Positions 6,073-54,398 of a stretch of DNA of 64,000 bases are shown here, in pieces. The position numbers and the translations under genes were made by a program. Numbering within the stretch: position 1 is the stretch's first letter; every line of letters starts with the position of its first letter. Origin of the DNA: Eggerthella sp. (GTDB taxonomy: Bacteria; Actinomycetota; Coriobacteriia; Coriobacteriales; Eggerthellaceae); the NCBI GenBank assembly GCA_030540085.1, contig JAUNWY010000001.1, positions 213,480 to 277,479 on the forward strand. The letters run 5' to 3'. Under the pieces are notes generated by a model that had not been told where the DNA came from, ran no database searches, and saw only the letters and a list, made by a program, of their open reading frames with translations.

Positions 6073-7416
6073 CTAGAACTCAAGTTCCTTCAGGCGATCG
6101 AATACCACGTCTTTACGCGTTAGGAAGTCCCACGGGTCGAAGATCTCGTCGAGCGTTTCCTTGGAAAGCTTGGCCTCGGGATCGGCTTCCAAGTTCTCGC
6201 GATAGGTGGGGCCGTCAACAGCGTTCTGGATGTCGGCCCATACCTTCATGGCGTTACGCTGAACGATAACGTATGCGTCTTCGCGCGTGATGCCGGTCTG
6301 AACCAAGGCAAGCAGCACCTTCGAAGAGAAGATGAGACCCTTGGTGCGCCACAGGTTGTGCTCCATCTTGGCAGGATAGGTCTGCAGACCGTCAAGCATC
6401 CACTGCATCTTGCCGAACATATAATCCAGCGCGATGAAGCTATCCGCCATGGCAACGCGCTCTGCGCCAGAGTGGCTGATGTCGCGCTCGTACCACAGAG
6501 CAACGTCGTCAAGCGCTACCTGAGCGTTGGACTTAACCACACGGGAAAGGCCGCACACACGCTCCGCAGTGATGGGGTTGCGCTTATGGGGCATAGCGGA
6601 AGAACCCTTCTGACCCTTGGCAAACGGCTCTTCAGCCTCGATAACGTCAGACTGCTGAAGCAGACGAACCTGCATAGCAATGGACTCCAACGTGGAAGCG
6701 GTAACAGCCAACGCCGTCATAACCTGAGCATGGCGGTCACGTGCCAAAACCTGCGTGGAAAGCGGGTCGGGCGTAAGGCCAAGCTTTTCGCAGACATACT
6801 GTTCTACGAATGGGTCGATGCTGGAGTAGGTTCCAACAGCACCGCTGATTGCGCCCGTTGCTGCAACCTTGCGAGCCTCCTGCAGACGCGTCTGAGCGCG
6901 CTTCAGGGCCCAAGCCCAGCTGCCGAACTTCATGCCGAACGTCATAGGCTCAGCATGGATGCCGTGGGTGCGGCCCACGCACAAGGTTTCCTGGAATTCA
7001 AAAGCGCGGCGCTTGCAGGTTTCACCCAGCAGAGCAACGTCCTTCAGGATGATATCCAGCGCCTGGGTAATCTGATAGGAAAGAGCCGTATCGCCCAAGT
7101 CGGAAGAGGTCATACCGTAATGAACCCAACGGCTGGGAGGCTCGGTTCCCTCGGGAACGTCAGCATCGATGTACTCCGCCATGTTGGTGGTGAAGGCGAT
7201 TACATCGTGGTTGGTAACCTTTTCGATCTCGTCGATGCGCTCAACAGTGAAGTCTGCATGCTTGCGGATCCAAGCAGCCTCTTCCTTGGTGATGCCCGAT
7301 TTGCCCAATTCGGCCTGGGCTTCGCATGCCAGAACCTCGATTTCCTTCCAGATCTCGAACTTGTTCTGGAGCTCCCAAATAGCACCCATTTCGGGGCGGG
7401 TGTAGCGACCGATCAT
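6073..7416 (-). CDS. purB: adenylosuccinate lyase
   Basis: Acts twice in purine synthesis, releasing fumarate from SAICAR and from adenylosuccinate. The 447-residue protein carries the fumarase/aspartase superfamily signature SSAMPHKRNP (mobile loop with the catalytic Ser), the upstream TSSDLGDTA segment and the GRTHGIHAEP motif. Length is normal for the shorter bacterial PurB type. The ATG at 7416 has AGGGAGGA about 5 nt upstream. It stands alone between a terminator and the trkA pair, so it is probably monocistronic. Confidence 0.96.
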   Translation of the reverse strand: MIGRYTRPEMGAIWELQNKFEIWKEIEVLACEAQAELGKSGITKEEAAWIRKHADFTVERIDEIEKVTNHDVIAFTTNMAEYIDADVPEGTEPPSRWVHYGMTSSDLGDTALSYQITQALDIILKDVALLGETCKRRAFEFQETLCVGRTHGIHAEPMTFGMKFGSWAWALKRAQTRLQEARKVAATGAISGAVGTYSSIDPFVEQYVCEKLGLTPDPLSTQVLARDRHAQVMTALAVTASTLESIAMQVRLLQQSDVIEAEEPFAKGQKGSSAMPHKRNPITAERVCGLSRVVKSNAQVALDDVALWYERDISHSGAERVAMADSFIALDYMFGKMQWMLDGLQTYPAKMEHNLWRTKGLIFSSKVLLALVQTGITREDAYVIVQRNAMKVWADIQNAVDGPTYRENLEADPEAKLSKETLDEIFDPWDFLTRKDVVFDRLKELEF

Positions 7417-7505
7417 TCGATTCCTCCCTTTACATATGCCTTACCAGGCAACTGACTGAGACCATATTCTACCAACATAAAACACGCGAACGCCCACGGC
7501 AACCG

Positions 7506-8177
7506 TTACAACGAACGCACGATTTCGCGAGCACGAGCCAGAAGATCGGTATCCGCCGCAACGATAACCTGATCACCTGGGAAAATGCGCGTTTCGCTAT
7601 TCACTACCTCCACGTCGTCTTGATGTGAAACAGCAATTATGCGAATACCTTCGTCGAATTCAATGTCGAGCGCTCGCACGCCTTTGTAGTTGTCGTGGTT
7701 GCGCATGGTGGGAACTTTGATGTCCAGCAAGCCAATCTGGTCGCTGGTAAGCGAAACGGCAACGCCCATAGATCCAAGCATGGCTTCTTCCTGAATCATG
7801 TTCGCGATCATTACTGTGGAAGAAACACTTTCAATGCCCATGCGGCGGAAAATTCGCAAATTCTTGGGACTGTTCACGCGAGCGATGCAGCGCGGCACAT
7901 CAAACACGCGCGAGGCAATCTCACACGCAGCAAGGTTGTCTTCATCTTGGCCGGTTGCCGCCACAAAAACATCGGCCGATTGCATCGCCGCATCTTCCTG
8001 GACGGAAGCCGAGCAGCCATCACCGCTGATAACCAGACAAGAACCATCGATGGTTTCCGCCAAACGGCGTGCTTGGGCATCGCATTTTTCAATCAAGGCA
8101 ACCTGGTTGTCTTCGCGCAAAAGGGTACCCGCAAGATATGCGCCGAGCTTGCCGCCGCCAACGATAACGATATACAC
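7506..8177 (-). CDS. TrkA-type potassium uptake regulatory protein (second copy)
   Basis: A cytosolic gating subunit for a Trk/Ktr potassium channel, 223 residues. The N-terminal Rossmann RCK_N domain begins IVIVGGGKLGAYLA with an NAD(H)/nucleotide glycine motif and continues through ISGDG and VFVAATGQDEDN. A C-terminal RCK_C domain (about 135-220) follows, with FPGDQVIVAAD near the end. The start is GTG with GGGGG about 6 nt upstream. It lies 9 nt after another trkA-like gene, and the two probably form a heteromeric regulator. No trkH/ktrB channel gene is visible in the window. Confidence 0.88.
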   Translation of the reverse strand: MYIVIVGGGKLGAYLAGTLLREDNQVALIEKCDAQARRLAETIDGSCLVISGDGCSASVQEDAAMQSADVFVAATGQDEDNLAACEIASRVFDVPRCIARVNSPKNLRIFRRMGIESVSSTVMIANMIQEEAMLGSMGVAVSLTSDQIGLLDIKVPTMRNHDNYKGVRALDIEFDEGIRIIAVSHQDDVEVVNSETRIFPGDQVIVAADTDLLARAREIVRSL

Positions 8178-50103: not shown

Positions 50104-50338
50104 TGATCGAGTTTTCCTCCCCTTTAATTCCTTCTTTATTCTTTAATAAATAACTAATAGTAGAAGTAGTAATCAGGGTGGATATGTTGATAACTTCTCT
50201 ATTGCCTGATGAACATGGAAAAACACATGTCGGGAACCCTGTGGAAAAGCACCTTGGTTATCCACAGGGAAAACGTGGGGAAAACTTCTTCCACAAAGGT
50301 ACGGGGTAATCCCCACACTTTGTCACCGTTTATCAACA
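50104..50338. promoter_or_regulatory. oriC: origin of replication, unwinding part (dnaA-dnaN gap)
   Basis: The 318-bp gap holds DnaA boxes: TTATCAACA on the minus strand (50193-50185), an abutting ATATCCACC (50185-50177), TTATCCACA (50258-50266) and TTATCAACA (50330-50338), plus a weaker one at 50240-50248. Directly next to the first pair, reading the minus strand, a TTACTACTTCTACTATTAG run (about 50173-50155) matches the DnaA-trio pattern and leads into AT-rich DNA (50117-50160). The order box, box, trio, AT-rich is that of the Bacillus subtilis unwinding site. Confidence 0.85.
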
Positions 50339-50342
50339 GGTT

Positions 50343-51896
50343 TTAATACTGCTGGATGCGAATTTTTTCGCGCACCGCTTCCAGTTCTTCGCGCAGGTTT
50401 CGGTCTTCCTGCATCTGGCTTGAAATGAGCTCGCACGAGTGAAGCACCGTGGTGTGGTCGCGGTTGAACGCTTTGCCGATGTTGCTTAGCGTAGTCTCCG
50501 ACAAGTCACGGCACAGATAGATCGCAACCTGTCGTGGCCGCACAATGCTTCTTGCCCTTCCGCGCCCCACGATGTCCTTATGCGAAACGCCGTAAAAATC
50601 TTCAACGGCTGCTTGGATCATCTCTATCGTGATGCGTTTCTTGCCTCCGCCGATAAAGTGGTTGCCCAGAAGCTCCTTTACCTGACCCTCCGAAAGCGTG
50701 TGGTCCTTGTTCATCTTCATGGCGAATATCACGTTGGTGATAGCGCTCTTCAGCTCGCGGATGTTCGAGCTGGAATTGTCCACAATGTAGTCGAGGATTT
50801 CGTCTGTGATGACAAACGATGTGTTTTCCCGACTCTGGTAGTGGCGAATAAGGCTTTTGATGATGTTGCGCTTCGTCTCATCGTCGGGTGGTTGAATATC
50901 TATCGTGGCTCCCGAGTTGAATCGGGATACATAGCGTTCGTCGAGGTCGATGTTTTTCGGCGCTCGGTCTGCAGAGAACACAAACTGCTTACCCTTTGGA
51001 ATCATCGAATTGAAGATACGGAAGAGCGCATTGAGTGTGCCGGGCTTGCTTTGGAGTCCCTGAATATCGTCGATGAGCAGTACGTCCGCCTGCTGGAAAT
51101 AACCCTCAAAGTTCTTGAAGCTTTGTTTGTCGACGCTTTTTTCTATTGCAGCGTCTGAGTAGCGGTTTACCAGCTCCATCGAATCGATATAGCACACGTT
51201 GAGCTCTGGACGGGTTTCCTTGATGTAGTTTTGGATCGCGCACATAAGGTGCGTTTTGCCTACACCGGATCGTCCATATATAAACAGTGGGTTCAGCTCG
51301 GATGAGCCAGGGCGGTCTGCTACCTCTACTGCCATGTTGTAGGCCATGCGGTTCGACTCGCCAATAACGAAGGAGTCAAAGGTAAGCGCGGCTTCCCCTG
51401 TTGCTTCGTTGTCGTTTCCGCTCGTCTCGGTGTTCTGCGATTGCGGTTCGGACGTTTCCGCCTGCGTTGCCGGATGACTGGGCTGGGGCGCGGGTGCGCT
51501 AGTGGGCTGTGCGCTTGGAGCAGGTGCGCTCTGTGCGCTTGGCGCTGCGAGTGTCGGCTGCTGCTGGACCGCTTGCGGTGCGGCAGCAGGGGCGGAAGAG
51601 GTCGCGGCGGGTGCGGTCTGGGCCGAAGGCGCTGGTGTCGTCGCAGTGGGGTCGACCTCTATCAGTACCTGAAAATCCAGGTTGTATAGATCGTTGAGTG
51701 CTTTCTGGACATCTTTCAGGTAATGCCTCTCGATCCAATCTTTAATAAAGGCATTGTCCGAGGTGAGCATGATGAAACCAGGGCTTGCTGCCTGGATTTG
51801 AACGCGCGAGAAGAACGCATCGATTTGTGATGCGTTAATGGTGGGATACGACTTCAGCTGTCGCATCAGATCTGTCCACGTCTGTTCGATATCCAT
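50343..51896 (-). CDS. dnaA: chromosomal replication initiator protein DnaA
   Basis: The origin-binding AAA+ initiator, 517 residues. Domain I (about 1-80; WTDLMRQLKSYPTINASQID) is followed by an unusually Ala/Pro/Gln-rich disordered domain II (about 84-165), domain III with Walker A GRSGVGKTH (about 208-216), LLIDDIQGL and a sensor region, and domain IV with the DnaA-box recognition helix near FNRDHTTVLHSCELI. The gene lies 50 nt downstream of the GHKL gene on the same strand, with no obvious promoter between them, so the two are probably co-transcribed. Box clusters flank this pair. Confidence 0.97.
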   Translation of the reverse strand: MDIEQTWTDLMRQLKSYPTINASQIDAFFSRVQIQAASPGFIMLTSDNAFIKDWIERHYLKDVQKALNDLYNLDFQVLIEVDPTATTPAPSAQTAPAATSSAPAAAPQAVQQQPTLAAPSAQSAPAPSAQPTSAPAPQPSHPATQAETSEPQSQNTETSGNDNEATGEAALTFDSFVIGESNRMAYNMAVEVADRPGSSELNPLFIYGRSGVGKTHLMCAIQNYIKETRPELNVCYIDSMELVNRYSDAAIEKSVDKQSFKNFEGYFQQADVLLIDDIQGLQSKPGTLNALFRIFNSMIPKGKQFVFSADRAPKNIDLDERYVSRFNSGATIDIQPPDDETKRNIIKSLIRHYQSRENTSFVITDEILDYIVDNSSSNIRELKSAITNVIFAMKMNKDHTLSEGQVKELLGNHFIGGGKKRITIEMIQAAVEDFYGVSHKDIVGRGRARSIVRPRQVAIYLCRDLSETTLSNIGKAFNRDHTTVLHSCELISSQMQEDRNLREELEAVREKIRIQQY

Positions 51897-51946
51897 AAGG
51901 TTCTACGTAGTTCCATTCCGTTGGTGTGGGATGCGCCGTCTGTCGT

Positions 51947-53323
51947 TTACAAGGATAGGGCAACCTGCGTGCCTCGTGGGGTGAGCGTCCTTTTCTTATT
52001 CACCTTTTCCACGAGACCTGCTTCTTCCATTTTTGAAAAAGCGGTATGTACGCTAGCCACTGCAATATCGGTGGCCTTGCTGACTTCGCTTACGCCTAGG
52101 GTGTTATTCGGGAGAAGGGCTTTGAGCACGGCAACTTCGTTCTCGGTGAGGTCGGGAATCTGCGCCGTCTCAATTTCTTCGTCTGTTGTCCGCGACGCAA
52201 CCAGGCTGATGGTTACCACCGATCCCTGATTCACGTTGTCTTTGATTTCGATATGCCCGTGGGAGGTGCTTAGGTAGTCTTTCACGATAGGCAAGCCCGA
52301 CCCCACGCCTCGTATGTAGCGTTTCATCGGCTCTATGGCAGAGGAAAACCCGGGTTCCTGCACTAGGTCTTTGTGCTTGATGCCTGGGCCCTGATCTGCA
52401 AAACGAATAGTGTTGCCTTGATCGAAAATGGACACCACTACTTCGTTGAAATTGGCGTGGATGAAATTTTCGGATACTTCCCTGATTACGGTGTAGGGAA
52501 TCATCCCACCTGCTTCTTTGGCATTTTTGTAGGTCAAGGAGGCAATGTGCTCAATGTATTCGTGCGTGGGTCCTCCCTGCACTTGTATTACACGTGGAGC
52601 TGTTTTTAGCGAGTCGTATATAGCAATGCGTGCGGGCGTGGTTATGTGGTGGTAGTCGAAGCTCTGCGAGGGCGCAGCCTCTTCGACAGACTCGATGATG
52701 CCGCCATTCATTGTGTGGGCGTAGTCCTCGTCATACGTTGCTTGCTCCACGAAGGGGGGCACGAATGGCTGCTCATTCTGGTGGGTGTCAGGTCTTGGTT
52801 GTGGTACCGCTTGGGGGTAGGGCTGCGCCACCGCCGGCTGCATAACGTGAGGGTTCGCTGCGGGGGCGAACTGCTGAAACGCTTGCTGGGGATAGCTGGC
52901 CTGTGGCTGCTGGTACCCGACGGGGTAGCTCGGCCCCCCCTGGGCTCCAACCTGCGGCTCTGGGTTGTTGGCTATATTGGCAGAGGGCGGTTGCTCGTGT
53001 GGCGCTTGGCCGTTGACGCTTGCCATTTGCGTTGCGAAAGGCTGGTTGCCTGCCGGTACGGCGTAGCCAAGCTGTGGATAACCACCATAAGGCATGCCAT
53101 AGGGCATGCTTGGGTAAGGTTGTGCTTGAGCGCCCTGAGTGGGGTAGGGAGGAAATTGTCCTTGCCCGTACCCGTAGGGGGGAATGGATGTTTGGGCGGG
53201 CTGAGTGTTTGGCATCGCCGCTTCGGTTGCAGGCTGCCCCTCGTTGTAGGGAGGGTATGGCGCTGCCCCTTGTTCCCCCGCTTGTTCCATCGGCTGCATA
53301 TGTGGTGCGTTTTCTTGGTTCAT
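51947..53323 (-). CDS. GHKL ATPase with prion-like N-terminus and C-terminal winged helix
   Basis: A 458-residue protein I cannot assign to a named family. Residues about 5-190 are low-complexity, rich in Pro, Gln, Tyr, Ala and Gly with PYP, PYG and PQP repeats. Residues about 270-378 form a GHKL/histidine-kinase-like ATPase: N-box VIREVSENFIHANF, G1 DQGPGI, G2 GVGSGLPIV. There is no HisKA domain or phospho-His. Residues about 390-458 form a MarR-like winged helix (LTENEVAVLKALL, GVSEVSKATDIAVASVHTAF, TLTPRGTQVALSL). It has no membrane segment. The ATG at 53323 has GGAAAG nearby. An ATG at 53407 is possible and would give 486 residues. Placed between two DnaA-box clusters and directly upstream of dnaA, it may regulate initiation or dnaA expression. 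Confidence 0.85.
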   Translation of the reverse strand: MNQENAPHMQPMEQAGEQGAAPYPPYNEGQPATEAAMPNTQPAQTSIPPYGYGQGQFPPYPTQGAQAQPYPSMPYGMPYGGYPQLGYAVPAGNQPFATQMASVNGQAPHEQPPSANIANNPEPQVGAQGGPSYPVGYQQPQASYPQQAFQQFAPAANPHVMQPAVAQPYPQAVPQPRPDTHQNEQPFVPPFVEQATYDEDYAHTMNGGIIESVEEAAPSQSFDYHHITTPARIAIYDSLKTAPRVIQVQGGPTHEYIEHIASLTYKNAKEAGGMIPYTVIREVSENFIHANFNEVVVSIFDQGNTIRFADQGPGIKHKDLVQEPGFSSAIEPMKRYIRGVGSGLPIVKDYLSTSHGHIEIKDNVNQGSVVTISLVASRTTDEEIETAQIPDLTENEVAVLKALLPNNTLGVSEVSKATDIAVASVHTAFSKMEEAGLVEKVNKKRTLTPRGTQVALSL

Positions 53324-53420
53324 GATGCTTTCCGATTTTTTCAAAACATGAGAAAAAGAGCCCGACCGATATTCCTCTACAAGGCACAGATCGAGCTGAT
53401 TTTTCATTCATTCTAGACGG

Positions 53421-53826
53421 TTATTCACACTTTTTCAAACTTTCCACCGTCTTTTCCTCGTGTTTTCGGAGTTTTCAACATTCTTTCAATAAAATGTGGA
53501 AAACATTGAAAACGCCTGAAGAAAAATGTGAAAAACCTGAAAGGCATTTTGGAAAACTATTCTGGGAAAGTAGCTTTTGCACTTCCACTTTTAGCCGTGG
53601 AAGTCAAGGCGCTTAAACTGCTAAGCCGGTACGCATGCAGTGGGAAAATAAGACTGTTGATAACAATAAAAGACCAGTTGAAAGCCTGTATTTTATAGAG
53701 CCCGAACCTCTTTTCCACCTATATTCTGGAGGCAGATTATTGTTTCTGCAAAGGGTTGCTGCAGCCTCTGGGATAATGGTGGGAAAGTATCCTGAAACAC
53801 CTGGAAAGTTATCAACATTATCCACA
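53421..53826. promoter_or_regulatory. oriC: origin of replication, upstream DnaA-box cluster
   Basis: The 565-bp gap before the GHKL gene is AT-rich and contains TTATTCACA (53421-53429), TGTTGATAA (53655-53663) and two directly abutting boxes TTATCAACA and TTATCCACA (53809-53826). Weaker boxes occur at about 53472 and 53495. Between 53495 and 53556 the short motif GAAAAC/GAAAAA recurs about every 11-13 bp. It also must carry promoters for the GHKL-dnaA unit and the PEBP gene. Confidence 0.8.
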
Positions 53827-53888
53827 ATGCTATATAAACAAATTGTGCATAAGTTGCTTTCCTTGGGGAAAAGTTAGGTGGACAAGCT

Positions 53889-54398
53889 ATGAAGATCGCT
53901 ATCCCATTGGATGAAAACGGCATGCTTCCCGATCGTTTTGGAAAATATTCGTCTCCAGAACTGCGTCGTGACGGCAACAATATTTGTTCATTCCCTGTCG
54001 AGGTGTCAGATGTGCCGGAGGGGGCTAGGTCCCTTGCTCTTTCGTTCGTTGATTACGATTCCATCCCCGTATGCGGCTTTGCTTGGATCCATTGGGCTGC
54101 TTGCGGAGTGAGCCCCGATACCGCCTTGATTCCCGAAAACGCCAGCCATAGCGGCGAATTCTCCTTCGTTCAAGGTTCGAACAGCTGCCTGTCCCGTGCC
54201 GAGGAAACAAGCGAAGAAGTGATTCGCGGGTATATCGGACCGTGTCCACCCGACAAGGATCACCGTTATACGCTTACGGTGTATGCGCTTGATTGCGAAC
54301 TTGATTTGCAGCCTGGCTTTTATTTCAACGAGTTCCACTGGGCCTTGCAGGGTCACATTCTCGATAGCGACGAGCTGAATGCCGTTAGCAGGGCGTAG
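53889..54398 (+). CDS. YbhB/YbcL (PEBP) family protein
   Basis: A 169-residue cytosolic protein of the phosphatidylethanolamine-binding-protein superfamily. It shows DVPEGARSLALSFVDYD, a conserved Asp-Pro-like ligand site replaced by DYDSIP, GFAWIHWAA, GPCPPDKDHRYTLTVYALD and the closing LDL. The bacterial members have no settled function. AGGTGG lies about 7 nt upstream of the ATG. Its place between the origin and rpmH is unusual, as that interval is normally empty or holds only dnaA. Confidence 0.8.
   Translation: MKIAIPLDENGMLPDRFGKYSSPELRRDGNNICSFPVEVSDVPEGARSLALSFVDYDSIPVCGFAWIHWAACGVSPDTALIPENASHSGEFSFVQGSNSCLSRAEETSEEVIRGYIGPCPPDKDHRYTLTVYALDCELDLQPGFYFNEFHWALQGHILDSDELNAVSRA

Follow-up and report, generated by a model that had tools for sequence, protein, structure and literature searches.

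The gene directly upstream of dnaA in this Eggerthella sp. genome encodes a GHKL ATPase joined to a C-terminal winged helix-turn-helix (wHTH), and it occupies this position, on the same strand as dnaA, in 82 of the 85 Actinomycetota genomes in which both genes could be placed. We refer to it as ghkl and regard it as a strong candidate for a controller of the timing of chromosome replication start. Its product may be an ATP-gated DNA-binding regulator of oriC/dnaA, a reading to which we give a probability of roughly 45%; an ATP-dependent, DNA-binding origin regulator is consistent with both the domains and the conserved active site.

The ghkl gene and the replication origin

The longest ghkl open-reading frame spans 51947–53407 on the minus strand of the window (the whole 64-kb stretch of DNA analysed here) and would encode 486 aa. 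A preliminary description of this DNA had given the gene that extent, 50 nt from dnaA on the same strand. The reading frame is real and the spacing is exactly as described (51897–51946, with dnaA directly downstream at 50343–51896, both genes on the minus strand), whilst the start probably has to be moved to ATG 53323 (51947–53323, minus strand, 458 aa), because ATG 53407 overlaps the −10 of a promoter-like site, TTGAAA-17-TAGAAT (53410–53438, minus strand); ATG 53323 is preceded by GGAAAG. This site was the top-scoring candidate promoter before ghkl, carries a DnaA-box-like TTATTCACA within its spacer (53421–53429), and is likely the promoter of a ghkl-dnaA operon. The gene is single-copy in its own genome, and is followed on its side by dnaA, then dnaN and recF, with a PEBP gene, rnpA, yidD, yidC, jag, rsmG and parA upstream on the other strand. 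The PEBP gene (YbhB/YbcL, Raf-kinase-inhibitor-like; 53889–54398, plus strand) separates the origin from the rpmH-rnpA side, as an insertion that was not seen in the relatives tested. No Rfam RNA was found at 47–58 kb of the window.

DnaA boxes of the pattern TTWTCMACA are strongly enriched, with 12 matches in the window against 1.9 expected, a number reached by none of 100 shuffled windows. Nine of the 12 fall in two clusters, neither assigned to a strand, and one lies inside ghkl at 53073. The first cluster (50185–50338) holds four matches in the dnaA-dnaN gap, the second (53421–53852) lies between ghkl and the divergent PEBP/rpmH-rnpA side, with five matches at 53472–53826, so that ghkl does sit between two box clusters, as the preliminary description had it. 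The cumulative GC-skew reaches its minimum near 48–50 kb, and the region is therefore the replication origin.

Linkage of ghkl to dnaA

Profile searches detected ghkl homologues in 171 of 199 genomes of the class and in 118 of 296 genomes of the phylum, including 18 families outside the class; dnaA was detected in 285 of the same 296. Across the phylum the gap between the two genes has a median of about 60 nt (range 39–373). In two of the three exceptions among the 85 genomes the genes lie on separate contigs, and in the third dnaA occupies the first bases of a long contig and ghkl lies near its far end, the arrangement that a circular chromosome linearised at dnaA would give. Every locus from L121 to L180 that reaches dnaA has the order rnpA-yidD-yidC, origin, ghkl-dnaA-dnaN-recF. 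Homologues lying away from dnaA had been proposed as the observation that would count against a role at the origin; when this was checked, the gene stayed at dnaA/oriC phylum-wide.

Within the Eggerthellaceae, ghkl is followed by dnaA in 77 of 80 named loci (L041–L120), whilst in 30 of these 80 an inversion has carried dnaN across the origin, apart from dnaA; by this comparison the tie between ghkl and the origin is firmer than that between dnaN and dnaA. The remaining three loci (L059, L075 and L105) have a dnaA that diverges from ghkl or is inverted relative to it, and there ghkl still abuts the DnaA-box cluster, within ~200 nt. Lasting adjacency of this kind can also reflect shared transcription with no direct role, and the protein could be a regulator of distant genes, or a general growth-state sensor, kept at the origin solely for growth-linked dosage and expression, in the manner of recF, rpmH or jag, and without a direct part in initiation. 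This is an improbable account in our judgement: other non-initiator genes are conserved at the same origin, and losses of ghkl leave dnaA and oriC intact, as it would predict, but the linkage is tighter than that of dnaA and dnaN in the Eggerthellaceae and the rearranged genomes retain ghkl at the box cluster.

Conserved DNA elements beside ghkl and dnaA

Conserved among Actinomycetota origins, whether or not they carry ghkl, is a triple DnaA-box element of fixed spacing, TTTTCCACA-N2-TGTGGAAAG-N2/3-TTGTGGATAA (loci L122–L179 and L195–L227, e.g. L171, L130 and L133). In many lineages it precedes ghkl, and in those lacking the gene it stands immediately before dnaA, which places ghkl within the dnaA operon, between the element and dnaA. 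The shorter TCCACA-N2-TGTGGA is found in 26 of 58 ghkl-bearing loci and in 18 of 33 genomes without the gene, and never in 20 shuffles. We considered the palindrome TTTCCACA-NN-TGTGGAAAG, fixed in spacing at 26 of the 58 loci, as an operator of ghkl and dropped the idea, because it recurs in the 18 ghkl-less genomes and forms part of the triple element; it is best read as a DnaA site. The upstream regions compared yielded no DNA motif confined to ghkl-bearing genomes.

The Eggerthellaceae (L041–L120) lack the exact triple element, and their boxes read TTTTCCACA, TTTTCAACA or TTTTCCACT, not TTATCCACA. Their DnaA is strongly diverged and forms a long branch in the DnaA tree, and the wHTH of their GHKL protein has lost a recognition-helix Arg that is present in most other groups. 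That box spelling, DnaA divergence and Arg loss coincide on the same lineages is suggestive only.

Domain architecture and active site

Pfam places HATPase_c at residues 305–402 (E 1.7e-9, above the cut-off) and a wHTH at residues 419–474 (TrmB, E 5.6e-8, 33.0 bits against a cut-off of 25.6), with weaker matches of MarR_2 and IclR to the same C-terminal domain and a Csa3 wHTH profile match (E 1.7e-7). Together with the motifs, profiles and an AF2 model in which both folds are predicted (mean pLDDT 93.7), this gives a GHKL (Bergerat) ATP-binding domain at 52202–52633 and a C-terminal TrmB/IclR/MarR-like wHTH at 51950–52153, both on the minus strand. HATPase_c was present in all 84 members inspected, no HisKA or phospho-acceptor domain was found by Pfam in the window protein or these 84, and the stretch ahead of the GHKL fold is short in most members; the Pfam results thus agree with the preliminary description of a GHKL protein with a C-terminal winged helix and without a phospho-His domain. 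The motifs comprise an N-box, E310-x3-N314-x2-H317, a DQGPGI and a YIRGVGSGLP, the latter within GVGSGLPIV. Amongst 84 diverse homologues the N-box Glu (E310, long-ORF numbering) is kept in 83, and Asn314, His317, Asp338 and the G1/G2 glycines in all. By motif and model, the product belongs to the GHKL ATPase superfamily, with a predicted Bergerat fold and N, G1 and G2 motifs.

The low-complexity stretch, rich in Pro, Gln, Tyr and Gly and annotated at 52673–53323 (minus strand), is genus-specific as an N-terminus. It occupies residues ~30–245 of the long ORF, and a comparison of 139 members placed it at the N-terminus in four and between the two domains in 26 (Eggerthella, Adlercreutzia and some Coriobacteriales members), with none in the remaining 109. 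The Pro/Gln/Tyr-rich N-terminus noted in the preliminary description therefore exists in this protein but is not a conserved family feature, and a prion-like N-terminus as a family trait is rejected; the suggestion that the protein forms condensates loses its support, as the stretch shifts position or is absent in most members. The DnaA of the window has an ~80-residue Pro/Ala/Gln-rich domain II linker, and no protein in the 64 kb other than DnaA and the ghkl product has low complexity of this kind.

Profile searches against PDB sequences returned sporulation kinase B, BCKDK, CheA, MutL and SpoIIAB, and a fold search ranked DIP2311 (PDB 3lmm) first (E 5.7e-8), followed by histidine kinases. 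In a viral fold search the matches were confined to histidine kinases and generic wHTH proteins, and plasmids and phages gave only distant histidine-kinase-like ones.

These similarities bear on the main rival to an ATP-gated DNA-binding regulator, which places the product in the SpoIIAB/RsbT/BCKDK branch of GHKL proteins, as a protein kinase (serine/threonine or other) or a switch protein. It would phosphorylate a partner or sequester it, and the partner might be DnaA itself, with the wHTH as a docking or targeting module. The N-box E-x3-N-x2-H-A, the DQGPGI and the ‘PGFTSA...GVGSGLP’ resemble BCKDK and anti-sigma F factor, the BCKDK profile matches with E 5.5e-7 over its FTTA lid and GFGFGLP, and that of anti-sigma F factor with 2.6e-4. 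The conserved Glu would be the catalytic base, a residue not known to be conserved in HisKA kinases. In most groups the net charge of the wHTH is near neutral or acidic (−3 to +2), so that a protein instead of DNA could be its target, and the failure to find a ghkl-specific DNA site points the same way. We nevertheless consider a kinase unlikely, as neither the window protein nor the 84 members match the anti-sigma-type HATPase_c_2 in Pfam, the neighbours are dnaA/dnaN/recF and rpmH-rnpA-yidC with neither a sigma factor gene nor a STAS partner near ghkl, and histidine kinases make up most of the best matches by structure and by profile. The same Glu (83/84) is also of the MutL type, a position at which Hsp90 has Asp, and MutL N-terminal profiles match over the N-box/G1 part, which would suit a MutL/Hsp90-like ATP clamp acting as a loader or remodeller on DNA or DnaA at the origin; such a clamp is very improbable, however, as the transducer (S5-like) domain with which MutL, GyrB and Hsp90 ATPases are completed is absent and the GHKL fold is followed by a linker and the wHTH.

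Ancestry, loss and selection

Apparent absence within the class is mostly a matter of missing assembly, since 11 of 16 class genomes without ghkl also have no detectable dnaA. Genomes in which dnaA went undetected (G009, G226, G029, G035, G036, G041, G045, G085, G103, G150 and G154; protein query, E 1e-20) are 89–98% complete, one 99%, and either the origin region seems to be missing from the assembly or dnaA seems too diverged for the query. Genuine losses, in which both dnaA and dnaN remain intact, were found in G203, G064, G073 and G106, and ghkl is therefore not universally required. At the locus of one clean loss, L187 (G203, of the genus of Slackia piriformis), the origin (6650–8150) carries six TTTTCCACA boxes, against one at the origin of S. 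piriformis itself (L068). A sensitive re-search of ghkl-less origins recovered one missed member (L212, ghkl-bearing in the tree labels) and no divergent copies with a GHKL domain.

In a DnaA tree with E. coli as the outgroup, built by a quick method and with long branches, the deepest split in the phylum has ghkl-bearing lineages on either side, and there is one large ghkl-less clade (23 sampled rows) besides scattered losses; 11 changes were counted, one of them artefactual (the mislabelled window-genome locus L192). The tree suggests, as its simplest reading, that ghkl is ancestral to the phylum, with one loss in the large clade and several others outside it. Distances between GHKL cores correlate with those between DnaA proteins (Mantel r 0.73, 0/999), by which sequence comparison vertical inheritance of the gene is shown, and they are the smaller of the two (0.47 against 0.54). 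With a median dN/dS of 0.059 in the GHKL core, ghkl is under strong purifying selection and is conserved at least as well as DnaA.

A single-copy gene of the dnaA operon, conserved like DnaA and present in most early branches of the phylum, makes a candidate initiation regulator of a new class, and the early-branching hosts include gut Eggerthella, Gordonibacter and Collinsella as well as environmental lineages. The large ghkl-less clade we take to be Actinomycetia-like, with Streptomyces, Mycobacterium and Corynebacterium presumably placed in it, so that these model actinobacteria would not reveal the gene. It is possible, and we put it forward tentatively, that a GHKL ATPase was the ancestral direct controller of initiation in Actinomycetota, passing a nucleotide state or kinase signal to DnaA/oriC, and that the Actinomycetia-like clade lost it.

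A proposed mechanism

We propose that dnaA has in ghkl a dedicated partner gene, ancestral to the phylum. Transcription of ghkl, as the first gene of the operon, would start at a promoter lying within the DnaA-box cluster and run on into dnaA. Being first in the operon, its product would be made with DnaA, and probably under the same DnaA autoregulation, which is documented in Streptomyces and mycobacteria (PMC8203912). The GHKL domain would bind ATP, and its nucleotide state may alter how the two protomers of a putative dimer pair or are oriented. That change could control whether the C-terminal winged helices bind the DnaA-box-rich DNA of oriC or the operon promoter, and would thereby tune dnaA expression or orisome assembly to the ATP or growth state of the cell.

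Comparison with known systems

No paper linking a GHKL protein to dnaA/oriC in these bacteria was found in the open-access literature, and to our knowledge no bacterial initiation regulator of the GHKL ATPase class has been described. The domains are known, and it is the GHKL-wHTH fusion as a phylum-ancestral first gene of the dnaA operon that appears undescribed. SpoIIAB, RsbW and RsbT are likewise stand-alone GHKL proteins without HisKA, with an E-x3-N N-box and a D-x-GPGI-type G1; the ghkl product differs in its wHTH, in an extra N-terminal beta hairpin and in having no HATPase_c_2, and its gene sits in the dnaA operon without a sigma or STAS partner gene. The mitochondrial BCKDK/PDK kinases share the ATP lid (‘FTTA’ in theirs, ‘FTSA’ here) and the following glycine motif (‘GFGFGLP’ against ‘GVGSGLP’), and the N-box of BCKDK likewise reads E-x3-N-x2-(H/R)-A, whereas the ghkl product is bacterial, carries a wHTH and lacks their four-helix kinase domain. 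The best fold match in the PDB, DIP2311 (3lmm), is a distant one that likewise combines a GHKL-like domain with an HTH; its type is AlbA_2-HATPase-HTH (COG2865), and the ghkl product has no AlbA_2 by Pfam and a different domain arrangement, with 12% identity and an rmsd of 13 Å over both domains.

YabA is a lineage-specific regulator of DnaA. None of SirA, YabA, DiaA and HobA is a GHKL ATPase, and we know of no case in which one of these four is the conserved first gene of a phylum's dnaA operon. DiaA, HobA and SirA are lineage-restricted proteins likewise proposed to act on DnaA/oriC (PMC13270200). With the one-component regulators of the TrmB, IclR, MarR and Csa3 types the ghkl product has the wHTH in common, and here a GHKL ATPase takes the place of the ligand domain.
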